From: Hymenobacter perfusus
GTDB taxonomy: Bacteria; Bacteroidota; Bacteroidia; Cytophagales; Hymenobacteraceae
Assembly: GCF_003944765.1 (NCBI RefSeq)
Contig: NZ_RWIU01000005.1
Location: 1-64,000 of the forward strand
Reading direction: 5' to 3'
DNA length: 64,000 bases
Shown here: one piece after another, positions 21,203 through 26,898 of the stretch
Position numbering within the stretch: the stretch's first letter is position 1
How the letters are laid out: each line of letters opens with the position of its first letter
Position numbers and translations under genes: made by a program
Notes under the pieces: model-generated
Seen by the model: only the letters and a program-made list of their open reading frames with translations
Databases searched by the model: none
What the model was told of the DNA's origin: nothing

Positions 21203-23326
21203 TTACTTTTTCTCTTTTCCCTGCCGCAGGCTCAGGCCGGCGTACCAGTTGCGGGCGGGGGCGGGCTGGAAATAGCGTCCCCCGAAAGCGTTGAGGTCGT
21301 TGCCCAGGGAGTAGCGGCGGTCCGTGAGGTTTTCGGCCCCGCCGAACAGGTCTATGGTGAAGCCGCCGAAGCTGCGGCGCCAGCCCCCGCGCGTGCCGAA
21401 CGTCCAGTAGCCGGGCGCGGCTTCGGTATTGGCGTCGTTCACGAAGATGCGGGCCTGGTGGTTGACGGTGGGGCTCAGGTAGAAGCCCAGCGGAGCTACC
21501 AGCTCGAGGCCGGCGGTGAGGGTGTGGGGGGCGGTGCCGGTGAGGCGGTTGCCGCTGAAGTCCTGCCCGCCGCTTTCGTAGCTCCCGAAGCGGTAGTGGT
21601 TGTAAGCGTAGCTGACGAAGTAATCCAGGCCCGCGCCAGTGGTTACCACCGTGCATGGCACATCAGGTACTTCTTTCACCTGTTGCCACAGTGTACCCTT
21701 CAAAGACACCTCCACCCCGCGCTGGCGGGTGTTGCCGGCGTTGGCGAAAAGCTGGGTACCCAAATCGGTAGTGCGGGTGGTGATAGTCTGGCGCTGGCGC
21801 TGGTCGTAGATGGCCACGTCGTAGCGCAGCCGCTCCCGCAGCAGCATGCCGCGCGCGCCCACCTCGTAGCTGGTGCCGCGCTCGGCCTGCAAGGCGCGGT
21901 TGATGGAGCCGTCGGAAGGGCGGATTTCTTCTTCGGTGGGCGGCGAGAAGCCGGTGCTTACGCTGCCGTACACCGCCAAGGCCGGGCCAAACTCGCGCAA
22001 CAGAGCCACGCGCGGCGACACCTCGGGGCGGAAGTTGCGCTCCAACGCGTAGCCTGTGGGGTTGGTAGCGGCGTCGGACAAGCGGCTGATGCGGTAGCGT
22101 AGGCGGTTGTAGCTGGCTCCGGCCGTGAGCAGCAGCCCGGCCGGCAACTCGTAATCGGCCTGGGCGAAGGCGAAACCGGTGAGCGTTCGGATTTCATCGT
22201 CGTAGCGCAGGGTGCCGGGCTGGCCGGCGCGGTTCTGGTAGTTGCGGGAGCTTTCGAAGCCAGTCTGGGCCTCGGCCCCGGCTTGCAGGCGCAGGGTACG
22301 GCCGGCCAGGGCGGTGCGGTAGCTGGCCACCGTGCGCCCGCCACCACCCAGCAGCGTGTTGCGCTCGAAGTCTATCAGGTAGGGCGTGTTGATGCGGCTA
22401 CCGCTCAGGTAGAGTGTGGTGCGCAGGCTCAGCCGGTCGGTAAAACGGGCTTCGTGGGTGGCCCCGAGCAACGCGGTGCGGGAGGCGTAGTAGGTGCGCT
22501 GCGCCACGGTGCCAGGCGCGGTGGCCGTGCCGGGGCGGGCCTGGCGGGGGTCGGTGAGGAACTGGGCGCGGGTGAGGCCGCCGGGCAGCTGGTAGTTGAT
22601 ATCGGCGTACAGCGCGTGCAGGCCCACAGTCTGCTTTTCGGTGAGCTGCCACTCGCCGTCGAGAGCCAGCACGTCGCGGCGCAGGGCACTTTGCTGGCGG
22701 TAGCCGTCGAGGCTCTGGCGGGCGTAGGTGGCGCGCAGGTAGCCGGTGGCCGAGCCGGTTTCCACACTTGCCACGTAGCGCCGCAGCCCGAAGCTGCCCG
22801 CCGTGAAACCCACCTGGGCGGCGCTGGTACCGGGCGCGGGCCGCCGACCACTCAGCAGCACGGCCCCGCCGGTACCGGCCCCGTACACGCTGGCGGCGGG
22901 CCCTTTCACTACTTCCAGCCCGCCCAGCAGCGCGGGGTCGAGCAGGTTGAGGGGGGTGCTGCCGCTGGCCTCGGTGAACGGAATGCCCTGGTAGTACACC
23001 TTGGTGTTGCGCACCCCGAACGGGGAGCGGAGCGTGCTGCCCCGCACGCTGAGTCGGTAGCTGCCGCTGGCTCGCTCCTCCAGCCGCACGCCGGGCAGCG
23101 TGTTGACGGCCTGGGTGAGGGCGTTCTGCGGAAACCGTTCAAAGTCGCGGGCCGCGAGGGTGCTGACGGCGGCGGCAGTGCGCCGCAGCGGCAGCTGCTG
23201 GCCGTAGCCCGTGACGGTGGCCTCGGGCAGGATTACGGCGCGGGTGGTATCGGATGGGGCGGTTTGGGCTTGAGCTGCGAAGGAAAACAGTAGCAGCGGG
23301 GCAACGGGACGGTACAGGGGGAGCAT
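21203..23326 (-). CDS. TonB-dependent outer-membrane receptor
   Basis: A 707-residue outer-membrane receptor. A short signal peptide ends AAQAQ. A plug domain follows (VTGYGQQLPLRRTAAAVSTL, NTLPGVRLEERASGSYRLSV, LEVVKGPAASVYGAGTGG), then a 22-strand-type barrel with alternating aromatic and polar residues. It has no SusC-style N-terminal carboxypeptidase-regulatory domain and is smaller than SusC, so it belongs with siderophore, vitamin or metal receptors; the ligand is not evident. It ends LSLRQGKEKK rather than in the usual terminal aromatic residue. TACGTTCG at 23350-23357 may be the promoter box. Confidence 0.9.
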   Translation of the reverse strand: MLPLYRPVAPLLLFSFAAQAQTAPSDTTRAVILPEATVTGYGQQLPLRRTAAAVSTLAARDFERFPQNALTQAVNTLPGVRLEERASGSYRLSVRGSTLRSPFGVRNTKVYYQGIPFTEASGSTPLNLLDPALLGGLEVVKGPAASVYGAGTGGAVLLSGRRPAPGTSAAQVGFTAGSFGLRRYVASVETGSATGYLRATYARQSLDGYRQQSALRRDVLALDGEWQLTEKQTVGLHALYADINYQLPGGLTRAQFLTDPRQARPGTATAPGTVAQRTYYASRTALLGATHEARFTDRLSLRTTLYLSGSRINTPYLIDFERNTLLGGGGRTVASYRTALAGRTLRLQAGAEAQTGFESSRNYQNRAGQPGTLRYDDEIRTLTGFAFAQADYELPAGLLLTAGASYNRLRYRISRLSDAATNPTGYALERNFRPEVSPRVALLREFGPALAVYGSVSTGFSPPTEEEIRPSDGSINRALQAERGTSYEVGARGMLLRERLRYDVAIYDQRQRQTITTRTTDLGTQLFANAGNTRQRGVEVSLKGTLWQQVKEVPDVPCTVVTTGAGLDYFVSYAYNHYRFGSYESGGQDFSGNRLTGTAPHTLTAGLELVAPLGFYLSPTVNHQARIFVNDANTEAAPGYWTFGTRGGWRRSFGGFTIDLFGGAENLTDRRYSLGNDLNAFGGRYFQPAPARNWYAGLSLRQGKEKK

Positions 23327-23462: not shown

Positions 23463-23945
23463 CTAGTGGGTTTCACCCGGAGTTTGCGCGTACTGGTACA
23501 ACAGGCCGGCAGCAGCTTGCAGTAAGGGGATATCGGTAGTGCGTTCCTGGCACCGCTGCATATCGTAGTGGCACAGGGTACCGAAGGGCTGGCCCGCCGC
23601 ATCCCGGATCAGCACGCCGCAGTACGAGACAACCGGCGTATCAATCAGGCCCTGTACCTGGGTATCAGTAGCTGCTTCCTGAATTTCCAGGGGTTGTTGG
23701 CGCTGGCCTACCAGGGAGCAGAAGGTAGCTGACATAGGCACCGGCTCGGCCCGCTGCGGCGTGGGCGTGAACTGGTCAAACAGGGCATCGTTCTGCAACA
23801 CAACGCCCTCAAACCGATATAGGCCGGTGAACCGATGCGGAGTGCGGCTGTTCAGGTATTTCAGGGCGTTGTGCACGCCCTGCTGCTGCAGAATACCGGT
23901 AAACTCCGCAATTTCCCGCGACAAGGAATTCTGTTCGTCACTCAT
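23463..23945 (-). CDS. GAF domain protein
   Basis: A 160-residue soluble protein that is essentially one GAF domain. It has TPHRFTGLYRFEGVVLQN at the front, a central ATFCSLVGQRQQPLEIQEA and the diagnostic YCGVLIRDAAGQPFGTLCHYD. GAF domains bind small ligands or sense redox or light; with no output domain it may act through a partner. Its start is supported by a TACCTTTG box 91 bases upstream (24037-24044). Confidence 0.85.
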   Translation of the reverse strand: MSDEQNSLSREIAEFTGILQQQGVHNALKYLNSRTPHRFTGLYRFEGVVLQNDALFDQFTPTPQRAEPVPMSATFCSLVGQRQQPLEIQEAATDTQVQGLIDTPVVSYCGVLIRDAAGQPFGTLCHYDMQRCQERTTDIPLLQAAAGLLYQYAQTPGETH

Positions 23946-24192: not shown

Positions 24193-24927
24193 ATGCCTGC
24201 TGCCCTCTACCTCCCCCGCCGCCACCGCCGACACTTGCTGTTTCCGCCGGGCCTGCTGGCGTTGGCCGGGCTGTTGTGGCTGGGGTGCGTGACTATGGTT
24301 AGAATAGTACCGCCGAAGAAAACTGTGCTAGAATTTGCTGCGTGGCCGCCCAAAGTGTGTTCTGTTGATTCCGATGTGCCAGCATTTGTAGCAGAAGCAT
24401 GGCGAGGCTCACCTGCTTGCCTGCCACTTACAGCATTAGAGAAGTTTCGGCCTTGGTATACTTCCTGGTTTACAGGCAGCGTATTCTCTGATTACTTCGC
24501 CTTACAAAACACCCGATTTGTTGCGCGTGATTTAGAGCAAAATCCCGATCTAGATCAAGGATTTCGCGTGCATTTCGCTCCCCAAGCAACGTACAATAAC
24601 CTAGTTCAGGTGCTGGATTTGTTTAACCAAGAGAATGTTCGCAAGTCCTGGGTTGATTTTTATCATTTACCTGTAACGATGTACAGTTACACCGAAAAGC
24701 CCTTATTAGAAGAGCAGAGCTATAGTTCAGGAGATTTTAGATGCTTACTATGCGGTGATGTTATGCCGTATATCCCAACTACTTCAGAAGTAATTAAGCG
24801 TTGGCTTGCAGAATACCGGGCCGCTATCCTCTCCCCCGTTTGGCGCAACACCTGGCTCCTACTGCTGCTCCTCAGCGCTCTATCCATCCGGCAACTGACG
24901 CGCCTGCGGGCTGCTTACCGCTACTAA
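24193..24927 (+). CDS. Two-helix membrane protein of unknown family, paralog A
   Basis: A 244-residue protein. The N-terminus is basic (MPAALYLPRRHRRHLLFPPG), followed by a membrane helix (LLALAGLLWLGCV), about 160 residues probably outside the membrane, a second helix near the end (WLLLLLLSALSIRQL) and a short basic tail. The outer part contains GFRVHFAPQATYNNLVQVLD followed by LFNQENVRKSWVDFY, a pattern loosely like the periplasmic fold of ExbD; that is inference. The first 33 residues are identical to those of the next gene, while the rest diverges strongly. The core DNA is markedly AT-richer than both ends and than the neighbouring genes. No known family was recognised. Confidence 0.75.
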   Translation: MPAALYLPRRHRRHLLFPPGLLALAGLLWLGCVTMVRIVPPKKTVLEFAAWPPKVCSVDSDVPAFVAEAWRGSPACLPLTALEKFRPWYTSWFTGSVFSDYFALQNTRFVARDLEQNPDLDQGFRVHFAPQATYNNLVQVLDLFNQENVRKSWVDFYHLPVTMYSYTEKPLLEEQSYSSGDFRCLLCGDVMPYIPTTSEVIKRWLAEYRAAILSPVWRNTWLLLLLLSALSIRQLTRLRAAYRY

Positions 24928-24938
24928 ACCTTACCGCT

Positions 24939-25613
24939 ATGCCTGCCGCCCTCTACCTCCCCCGTCGCCACCGCCGCCACTTACTGTTTCCGCCAGGCCT
25001 GCTGGCGCTGGCGGGGCTGCTGTGGCTGGGGTGTGTGGCGGTACCGAGGATAGTGAGGCCTACTCAATATGTGAAGGAAGTTGTCTTTTTTCCCCTTCAT
25101 GTACCTGCCGATTCGTTTGGCGGATTCCCCACGCCTCAACAAATTGAGGACCTAGGTACATGGCAAAGCATTACCCTGTCGGGCAACCCGTGGGCTGATT
25201 ATTTTGACGTGAAAATAGTTGAAAACGCAGGTCTTTTGCTGGCTGAAAAACAGCTTCAGCATCGGGCGCTGCATGTATATCTGAACGCGTCAACTTCCTA
25301 CAATACATTTATTCAACTGTTGGATATACCTAATCAATTGGGCATTGAGCGGTATTTTATAGACTTACGGAAGATGCCTTACAGTATCAACTTATTGGGT
25401 AATATTCCTCACCCAAATTATCCTTCATTTATCTGTGGCACAGAATACATGAAGCCAATAAAACCCTTTTCCGAAATGGCAGAAGAATGGATTACAGAAA
25501 GCTGGGCTACCGTATTTGCCCCCGACTGGCGCAACACCACGCTTCTGCTGCTCCTCCTCACCGCCCTGTCCATCCGGCAACTGCGGCGGCAGTGGCGGGC
25601 GGTGGCAAGCTAA
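24939..25613 (+). CDS. Two-helix membrane protein of unknown family, paralog B
   Basis: A 224-residue tandem paralog of the preceding gene, starting 11 bases after its stop, so the two are surely co-transcribed. The 5' 107 bases, including TTACCGCT before the ATG, are about 90% identical between the copies. The 3' end (WRNTTLLLLLLTALSIRQL) is also conserved. The middle aligns only weakly, around HVYLNASTSYNTFIQLLDIP against the ExbD-like stretch of paralog A. Its core is likewise AT-rich. Function unknown. Confidence 0.75.
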   Translation: MPAALYLPRRHRRHLLFPPGLLALAGLLWLGCVAVPRIVRPTQYVKEVVFFPLHVPADSFGGFPTPQQIEDLGTWQSITLSGNPWADYFDVKIVENAGLLLAEKQLQHRALHVYLNASTSYNTFIQLLDIPNQLGIERYFIDLRKMPYSINLLGNIPHPNYPSFICGTEYMKPIKPFSEMAEEWITESWATVFAPDWRNTTLLLLLLTALSIRQLRRQWRAVAS

Positions 25614-25671
25614 ACCATAACCCCGGGCGGAAAAACGCAGTTAAGCCCAGCGCAACCTATTCACCTGCGTG

Positions 25672-26898
25672 ATGCTTCCGAAACTGACGATACCCCTGGC
25701 CACCGCCCTGCTGGCTGGCTTTACGGCCCCGGCCCAGAACGTGCCCCCGGCCGCCACCCCGTTCCAGATGACGGGCAACATCTACCTGCCCAACAAGCTG
25801 CCGGCCACGCCCGAGCGCATCGCCAGTCTGAAAGTACCCACCGGCTTCACCATCAGCAAATACGCCGAGGGCCTCGATATGCCCCGCATGCTGGCCGTGG
25901 CCCCCAACGGCGACGCCTACGTGAGCAACCGCGTGAAAGGCACTATCATGCTGCTGCGCGACGCCAACAAGGACGGTAAAGTGGAAACCACCCAGCAGGT
26001 GGCCCAGAAGCCCCACCTGCACGGCCTGGCCCTCCGGGACGGGAAGCTCTACATTGCCGCCATCCGGGAGGTGTACGTGGCCGACGTGAAGGCCGACGGC
26101 ACGCTAGGCGAGCTGAAGACTTTGTACAAAGACCTGCCCGACGCCGGTCAGCACGCCAACCGCACGTTGCAATTCGGCCCCGATGGGCTGCTCTACCTCT
26201 CGGTGGGCAGCACCTGCAACGCCTGCGACGAGGACAACCCCGAAAGCGCCACCCTGCTCCAGCTGAAACCCGATGGCTCGGGCCGGCGCGTGTACGCCCA
26301 GGGCCTGCGCAACACCATCGGCTTCGACTGGCATCCGGTTACCAAACAGCTCTACGGCCTCGACCACGGCATCGACTGGTTGGGCGACGAGGACCAGATG
26401 GAGGAGTTCAACCAGATCAAGGACGGCGGCCACTACGGCTGGCCCTCCATCATTGCCGACGGCAAGCATTACCCCGCCAACAAGCCCAAAACCGGGGAAA
26501 CCTATGAGCAGTTTGATGCCCGCACGGTGCGGCCGTTGCTCACCTACAAGGCCCATTCCGCGCCGCTGGGCATGGTGTTCTACCGGGGGCAGCAGTTTCC
26601 GCAGCCGTTCCGGCAGGATGCGTTTGTGACCATGCACGGCTCCTGGAACCGCGCCCAGCCCTCGGGCTACAAAATCGTGCGGGTGAAGTTCAACGAGCAG
26701 GGCCAGCCCCAGCAGTTCGAGGACTTCATCACGGGCTGGCTGGTGGAAAACGACAAGTCGGAATTCGGCCGTCCCTGCAGCATTGTGGAGGCCCCGGATG
26801 GCTCGTTGCTGGTCTCCGACGACGACAACGGCGTGATTTACCGCGTGGCCTACGCCGCGCCGGGCAAGGAAAGCAAGAAGGCAAAGAAACGCGGGTAA
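25672..26898 (+). CDS. Sorbosone-dehydrogenase-like PQQ/beta-propeller protein
   Basis: A 408-residue exported protein of the L-sorbosone / soluble glucose dehydrogenase family, a six-bladed propeller that usually binds PQQ and calcium in the periplasm. Features: a signal peptide ending APAQ, MPRMLAVAPNGDAYVSNRVK, the blade HANRTLQFGPDGLLYLSVGS, AQGLRNTIGFDWHP, LDHGIDWLGDEDQMEEFN, and FVTMHGSWNR near the end. Whether it is an active sugar dehydrogenase or only a propeller cannot be read from the sequence. ATG 25672 is used; a GTG directly before it is also in frame. The tail KESKKAKKRG is unusually basic. Confidence 0.87.
   Translation: MLPKLTIPLATALLAGFTAPAQNVPPAATPFQMTGNIYLPNKLPATPERIASLKVPTGFTISKYAEGLDMPRMLAVAPNGDAYVSNRVKGTIMLLRDANKDGKVETTQQVAQKPHLHGLALRDGKLYIAAIREVYVADVKADGTLGELKTLYKDLPDAGQHANRTLQFGPDGLLYLSVGSTCNACDEDNPESATLLQLKPDGSGRRVYAQGLRNTIGFDWHPVTKQLYGLDHGIDWLGDEDQMEEFNQIKDGGHYGWPSIIADGKHYPANKPKTGETYEQFDARTVRPLLTYKAHSAPLGMVFYRGQQFPQPFRQDAFVTMHGSWNRAQPSGYKIVRVKFNEQGQPQQFEDFITGWLVENDKSEFGRPCSIVEAPDGSLLVSDDDNGVIYRVAYAAPGKESKKAKKRG

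Follow-up and report, generated by a model that had tools for sequence, protein, structure and literature searches.

The two adjacent genes described here, which we call A and B, raise the question of how neighbouring paralogues can begin with the same protein sequence, end in a related helix and have so little in common in between, and of what such proteins might do. They lie in a 64,000-nucleotide stretch of Hymenobacter perfusus DNA, the whole of which is referred to below as the window, and their parts and surroundings are listed in Table 1. An earlier note made from this sequence alone described them as adjacent, and they are indeed both encoded on the plus strand, head to tail, with 11 bases from the stop codon of A to the ATG of B. 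The identical 33-residue N-terminus it reported is exact (33 of 33 residues), and its description of weakly aligning cores followed by a related C-terminal helix is supported by amino acid identities of 21% in the core and 69% in the C-end. Its figure of roughly 90% identity over about 107 bases at the 5' end fits the first 99 nucleotides (90/99, 91%), the value over the first 107 being slightly lower (92/107, 86%). The first helix of A spans residues 19-36 in the structure model, and the slot-2-type C-end of B matches that of the last copy in loci L040, L034 and L038. A 160-aa minus-strand gene at window positions 23463-23945, between the receptor and A, has no Pfam match at 0.01.

Table 1. 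Coordinates of the gene pair, its parts, landmark genes and N-end remnants (window positions unless a locus is named)
Feature	Position	Strand	Description
Gene A	24193..24927	+	244-aa ExbD-like protein, hydrophobic helix at either end, exchangeable core
Gene B	24939..25613	+	224-aa tandem paralogue of A
Conserved N-end of A (33 codons)	24193..24291	+	RR-rich stretch and first hydrophobic helix; left edge of exchanged block
Conserved N-end of B	24939..25037	+	same 33 residues as A
AT-rich exchangeable core of A (residues 37-212)	24301..24828	+	
AT-rich exchangeable core of B	25047..25514	+	
ExbD-like beta-alpha-beta-alpha-beta-beta domain of A (residues 88-166)	24454..24690	+	block pLDDT 93-98
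Matching domain in B (residues 74-153)	25158..25397	+	element order as in A; structure model
C-end of A	24829..24924	+	second hydrophobic helix and basic tail, slot-1 type
C-end of B	25515..25610	+	second hydrophobic helix and basic tail, slot-2 type
Divergent TonB-dependent receptor	21203..23326	-	locus landmark in Hymenobacter
Glucose/sorbosone dehydrogenase family gene	25669..26898	+	right flank, downstream of B
N-end scar, genome G030	L170:1216-1318		
N-end scar, genome G109	L183:1869-1970		reverse complement

A profile of 76 members located the family in 96 of 120 Hymenobacter genomes, with 114 matched stretches in all. A single copy is present in 82 of the 96 and two or more copies in 14 (G087 and G093 each counted as one split copy), so that the family does not form an obligate pair. 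Main neighbourhoods were fetched for 80 of 95 matched genomes. The family alignment, A1, holds the 76 open reading frames of at least 215 aa out of 98 family frames, and alignment A3 holds 63 of these 76; 57 loci have a linked TonB receptor, 55 of which entered the receptor tree, and in 20 of the 24 genomes without a family match the regions beside the receptor were read. In a sample of 60 genomes of the bacterial family, 15 of which belong to the genus, the profile matched in 40, and every one of the 22 genes read among the weaker matches has the ExbD motif, which makes these genes ordinary ExbDs. In the window's own genome a protein search returned only A and B plus one chance-level stretch (E 0.089), and plasmids and viral contigs yielded no family match to a single query, the relative L047. 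A mobile element or donor pool was rejected on the strength of these single-query searches, in which distant donors could be missed. Some members from a neighbouring genus (L134, L135, L138 and L139) end soon after the ExbD fold, at about 168-182 aa and without the C-terminal part, and in L134 and L135 the short member stands in tandem with a full-length copy.

How the cores come to differ was addressed by DNA comparison of 66 pairs of loci that share the left flank and have one full copy each in A1. The 29 pairs whose core identity is at most 0.40 are all homologous through the flank and the N-end and lose homology at gene nucleotides 80-171, all 17 pairs at 0.55 or more remain homologous past nucleotide 300, and the other 20 fall in between. 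On the right side homology returns in 21 of the 29 unlike-core pairs, in four of them within the last 107 nucleotides of the gene and in 17 at 0-74 nucleotides past the last codon. The pair L054/L061 illustrates both edges, with 92.3% identity over 5.1 kb on the left, up to gene nucleotide 91, and 92.5% over 4.7 kb on the right, starting 33 and 10 nucleotides past the last codon. Core identity was measured in two ways, from A1 columns (receptor bins and the 21% between A and B) and from separate pairwise alignments (nearest relatives and the 66-pair comparison), and for L054/L061 it is 0.28 by one measure and 0.36 by the other.

Synonymous sites provide a second line of evidence. The TonB receptor, which has one strong match in 116 of 120 genomes and can therefore serve as a yardstick of divergence, differs between L054 and L061 by a synonymous divergence of 0.18, and the N-end by 0.19, with the core saturated. 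Six pairs without a common locus (L054/L061, L058/L068, L034/L038, L036/L075, L085/L108 and L063/L099) have an N-end dS of 0.19-0.87, over about 31 codons, a receptor dS of 0.18-0.77 in the four that have the receptor, and a core dS beyond estimation. Because divergence is measurable in the N-end and receptor while that of the core is beyond estimation, in-place evolution is excluded for these six pairs. The sharp breaks at the edge of the N-terminal block, together with core synonymous sites at or near saturation in the exchanged part only, agree with the earlier proposal of conserved membrane ends holding an exchangeable core. The opposite pattern that the proposal had named, smooth divergence without swapping, was not seen, the best core identity ranging from 0.20 to 0.86 in 14 locus pairs with 90-96% receptor identity.

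The trees point in the same direction. In the receptor tree L054 goes with L061, and L058, L062 and L068 form a group; in the core tree the partners are L058 and L061 on the one hand and L062 and L068 on the other. The AU test rejects the flank grouping for the cores, with p-values of 0.03 (L054, L061), 0.001 (L058, L062, L068) and 8.8e-10 (L036, L075) that are not strictly a priori since the groups were picked after the core identities had been seen; L036 and L075 were treated as sisters from their flank DNA identity (87-90%, against 82% for either with L035) and not from the receptor tree. Mean core identity climbs as the receptors become more alike, being 0.25 where receptor identity falls in the 65% bin and 0.55 where it falls in the 95% bin. 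The maximum in the 65% bin is 0.42, and with no core close across distant species long-range transfer is without support. Several large lineage groups stay together in the core tree as well. Since core identity tracks receptor identity and the core tree keeps lineages, exchange is confined to relatives, a restriction that recombination in homologous arms would impose, and some of the divergence is gradual. In 13 pairs of the same core type, core dN/dS is 0.17-0.36, and receptor dN/dS is 0.10-0.23 in the ten that have it; same-type cores are thus under purifying selection and less constrained than the receptor. Two 150-nt core windows in L044/L045 are 94-97% identical against about 85% around them, which is suggestive only of a recent core transfer, and the other pairs profiled for recent transfer gave no clear tract (the L057/L059 profile is of the other copy in each array and not of the core pair used for the synonymous comparison). 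From these comparisons we consider it very probable that cores have repeatedly been replaced as a block among related species, with ends and flanks kept.

Replacement can be mimicked by the differential loss of old tandem copies, since A-like and B-like cores stand side by side in the window. On this account an ancestral multi-core array shrank by crossover in the shared ends, without transfer between genomes; it overlaps with the explanation that we prefer, and its chances seem to us only somewhat short of even. The 14 genomes with at least two copies fit an array, as does the presence of both core types in the window, given that of L036 and L075, which are closest to each other in flank DNA, one has retained an A-like and the other a B-like core. 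Loss has also left marks, in that 2 of the 20 sites read in gene-less genomes retain an N-end remnant, without core or C-end, just before the dehydrogenase gene (Table 1); among 95 N-end DNA matches in 80 loci, two lie away from a family gene. The array is also consistent with the comparison between the window and L040 (genome G110), which has 93% receptor identity to the window and two copies. Slot 1 of L040 carries a B-type core that, at 67%, is the closest relative found for the core of window B, and the core in slot 2 is unlike A or B, with its best match in L097 (45%). The C-ends match by position, with a dS of 0.27 in slot 1 and 0.18 in slot 2 versus 0.57 between window B and slot 1, and identity is 87% across the slot-1 C-end and the spacer and on into the second N-end. 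Cores and slots are therefore decoupled, because the C-ends match by position while the B-type core sits in slot 1 of L040. A crossover within the C-end accounts for this arrangement. An ancestral array of three members that underwent crossovers in N-end and C-end would give it as well, so exchange may have run in either direction. Against array loss as the full account stand the three core groups found at one locus in the lineages of L054, L058, L061, L062 and L068, none of which has tandem copies, and the many types into which the 76 cores fall, which calls for a large ancestral array; this account, moreover, depends on the same recombination in shared ends.

The identity of the proteins is best approached through profile comparison, by which the earlier statement that no known family could be recognised proves too strong: the family is a remote ExbD relative, and the weak ExbD-like phrase noticed in the core reflects real homology. 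Alignment by hhalign of the 76 family proteins with 22 true ExbDs of the same bacterial family gave a probability of 97.2 and an E-value of 4.8e-11 over 128 columns. Among 39 neighbour-cluster controls, 38 reached at most 18.6%, and the remaining one, cluster 31 (91.6% over 22 columns), shares the family N-end. True ExbDs are picked up by the family profile itself, and Pfam ExbD matches 12 of the 76 members weakly, at E 1 or better (best E 0.016). Pfam has no match for A or B up to E 5, no NCBIfam family covers either protein (best E 0.0059, scattered in one or two of the 76), a sequence search of solved structures gave two weak matches (best E 0.028), and Foldseek found nothing below E 0.001 (best 0.013, an RNase E domain). 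In a second fold search the best match, with Z 6.4 and 3.1 Å over 78 residues, is below the level where single matches are trusted and shares its rank with small alpha/beta folds of the SepF, Smr, IF3 and Alba types; ExbD/TolR is not among the matches listed. We read the fold-search matches as a common arrangement and base the ExbD relation on the sequence profile, which makes descent of the family from ExbD highly probable.

In the family profile the likeness to ExbD/TolR (PF02472) reaches from helix 1 almost to where the periplasmic fold ends. The consensus retains two ExbD-like stretches, one resembling 'V.QLT.P' that follows the helix and another of the form 'Y..LV..LD..N....KY'. In the structure models (mean pLDDT 83.5 for A and 80.3 for B) both proteins consist of an end helix, strand, helix, strand, helix, two strands and two C-terminal helices, leaving aside short helices before the first strand. 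ExbD itself has a single N-terminal membrane helix, with a proton-carrying Asp, and a free periplasmic C-terminus. In the present family the DxTPxVD motor motif is absent from all 76 members and an acidic residue in helix 1 is present in four; in the 22 true ExbDs, a set chosen by motif, D26, T28, P29, V31 and D32 are invariant, and a passage of PMC6778125 terms Asp25 of ExbD essential. The family differs further in its exchanged cores, in the lack of a Pfam match for the window proteins and in an additional C-terminal helix in most members: a hydrophobic stretch (Kyte-Doolittle of at least 1.6 over 17 residues) is found there in 52 of the 76 and not in 24, and both window models have the helix. 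Because the motor motif and the helix count fail, we do not file the family as ExbD despite its descent. Two true ExbD genes with DMTPMVD lie side by side in the window's genome (L123:2820-3982) and are its ordinary Ton-type subunits. Two divergent family members (L101:6187-6876 and L112:4983-5657) differ from the rest in their N-end and carry an Asp in helix 1, and are perhaps nearer the ancestral ExbD state.

Both termini are basic, with a mean of 5.4 K/R/H in the first 16 residues and 2.8 K/R in the last 15. Under the positive-inside rule basic ends stay on the cytoplasmic side, and the core should for that reason be periplasmic. A different reading of the N-end, which we regard as possible though unlikely, is that of a lipoprotein signal in which a Cys near residue 32 is acylated and a lipid anchor takes the place of the N-terminal membrane helix. 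Conservation of this residue (Cys at positions 31-33 in 70 of 76 members) makes the reading possible, and the basic start, the hydrophobic stretch and an LGC seen by eye add to it. Fusions also favour it: in L055 (4343-4975) and L050 (6455-7102) the first 20 or so N-end codons are fused in frame to the signal region of an unrelated exported protein, directly upstream of a normal copy. The residue ahead of Gly, however, is Leu, which differs from the usual lipobox, and Ser or Thr replaces the Cys in L091, L094, L100 and L105. The fusion partner in L055 is DUF3575 by Pfam, L060 (5677-6372) holds by eye a degenerate version of the fusion, and L062 and L101 carry the same exported protein with its own signal region. 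These fusions show the 5' block moving as DNA and starting another exported protein.

The base composition of the genes follows the same division into ends and core. The GC content of A is 0.69 in the N-end, 0.45 in the core and 0.65 in the C-end, that of B is 0.72, 0.43 and 0.70, and that of the surrounding locus is 0.62, so that the AT-rich cores between GC-rich ends reported earlier are borne out by the values per part and by the sliding GC profile. In all 76 members the AT content of the core exceeds that of its own locus, and in 69 it exceeds that of both ends, which puts the pattern beyond chance. Mean third-position GC over the 76 members is 0.49 for cores, 0.80 for N-ends and 0.69 for C-ends, and the 20 largest neighbour gene clusters have means of 0.64-0.84, each above that of the cores. 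With core third-position GC below all 20, the AT-rich core is a lasting, family-wide feature; foreign origin, weak codon selection or GC-raising conversion limited to the ends could each be its cause.

That 15 of the 114 matched stretches contain stops and 24 of the 120 genomes are without the gene makes the family gene dispensable, and it could be argued that an ExbD-derived gene under weak selection is simply kept by a stable locus and exchanged passively. The stops and absences fit such an account, as do a copy split by about 1.1 kb of other DNA in L141 and a third-position AT drift of the kind expected from relaxed codon use. We nevertheless find it unlikely, since 96 of 120 genomes keep at least part of the gene, dN/dS within a core type is 0.17-0.36, as given above, and the fold elements persist at 21% identity; the GC-rich ends of the same gene would also be left unexplained. 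The split copy, that of genome G087 (L141:5073-6201), contains open frames of 100 and 274 aa, which are IS-like sizes.

The surroundings of the gene invite a functional link to the TonB receptor, which is present in 57 of 80 neighbourhoods and stands upstream on the opposite strand in 53. Nine relatives from other genera (L125-L133) have no such receptor beside them, so the receptor neighbourhood says little about function and the link is weakened. The receptor is probably not the ligand either, because the outgroup relatives sit elsewhere and the receptor is unchanged when the core changes. Another conserved neighbour, present in 57 of 80 loci and mostly downstream of the family gene, is a protein of about 185 aa (cluster 1; the example at L070:5793-6350 is without a Pfam match). 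It is very improbable that A and B are working ExbD subunits of a dedicated Ton system for the adjacent receptor; ExbD homology, the nearby receptor and cluster 3, found in 36 of 80 neighbourhoods and with a TonB C-terminal domain (Pfam) in one member, fit that role, but the motor motif and, in all except four members, the acidic residue of helix 1 are missing, the receptor is at least 90% identical in cases where the core differs, and the outgroup members lie elsewhere. Rapid in-place divergence of the core under positive selection, without replacement, has the least to recommend it, for although the ends are constrained, the core evolves fast even within a type (identity 0.64-0.89) and mean core identity drops with receptor identity, smooth fast core evolution is ruled out for the swapped pairs by a core proportion of synonymous differences of at least 0.72 in 10 of 11 swapped cross-genome pairs (L079/L092 has 0.65, with homology there running to about nucleotide 480) at a receptor dS of 0.18-0.77 in the eight of 11 that have a receptor, and by the low dN/dS within core types.

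Block exchange is known for surface and toxin genes, and among the papers listed by our literature searches none describes it for an ExbD-type protein. A passage of PMC2935791 describes Rhs tip displacement, in which constant and exchangeable parts are evolutionarily decoupled, have distinct GC and are exchanged among relatives, with homologous recombination in the constant part as the proposed route. Measured against that passage the family is similar, its constant part being inherited with the flanks, its variable part replaced and the two differing in GC. Unlike in the Rhs case, the variable part lies inside the gene, with a constant end on either side, or else extends to the gene end, and the family is a small ExbD derivative with no recognised toxin or immunity gene and no long row of displaced tips seen. 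Loci of allele replacement in pilin-type surface proteins consist of one chromosomal site with conserved flanks, a conserved N-terminus and a non-orthologous remainder, features that recur here; by every family search made the present family is not a pilin. PADLOC gave no match to an anti-phage family, its best E-value (0.0056, BstA, in 2 of the 76) being read as chance, and PHROGs gave no match at 0.01.

What the data show is that the family is homologous to ExbD and has lost its motor motif, that cores have been replaced as blocks while ends and flanks were kept, and that cores of one type are under purifying selection. The explanation that we favour, and consider reasonably probable, is that the tandem genes A and B belong to a core-exchange locus and encode ExbD-descended, twice-tethered and motorless proteins. 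Each protein would be tethered to the inner membrane at both ends, with the ExbD-derived domain in the periplasm between them, a topology predicted from the sequence. The GC-rich 5' block of about 100 nucleotides, with the start codon, the RR-rich stretch and the first helix, would be kept in place, and on the right either the C-terminal helix or the DNA that directly follows the gene would stay. The middle would then be replaced as one block by recombination in these shared arms, the likely route, with a tandem copy or the DNA of a related species as the partner. Rare core types may be favoured, and each lineage would thereby keep a different binding domain.

As for function, the role that appears most likely, and that we put forward tentatively, is that of a motorless ExbD derivative recognising a variable periplasmic target, which may be Ton/Tol-type machinery or an antagonist exploiting it. 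Apart from the pattern of diversification, the analysis found nothing that speaks for or against the immunity, receptor or self-recognition roles suggested in the earlier note. A more speculative and rather doubtful extension of the core-exchange reading is a genus-wide envelope allotype locus, at which the interchangeable periplasmic domain of a disarmed ExbD derivative, held at both ends, marks the lineage. That domain would decide compatibility with phages, bacteriocins or neighbouring cells that exploit Ton/Tol, and the GC-rich 100-nt 5' block would act both as membrane anchor and as recombination arm.

In summary, the core-exchange locus offers a natural system for the study of domain swapping by recombination, with a fixed site, a constant arm of 100 nucleotides and cores that differ at more than 60% of residues, and it is useful for asking why third-position GC differs so strongly inside one gene. 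It also provides a testable target for the pressure that acts on the periplasm of environmental Bacteroidota. If our interpretation is true, a piece of the Ton/Tol motor family would have been recruited as a diversified envelope component across a genus.
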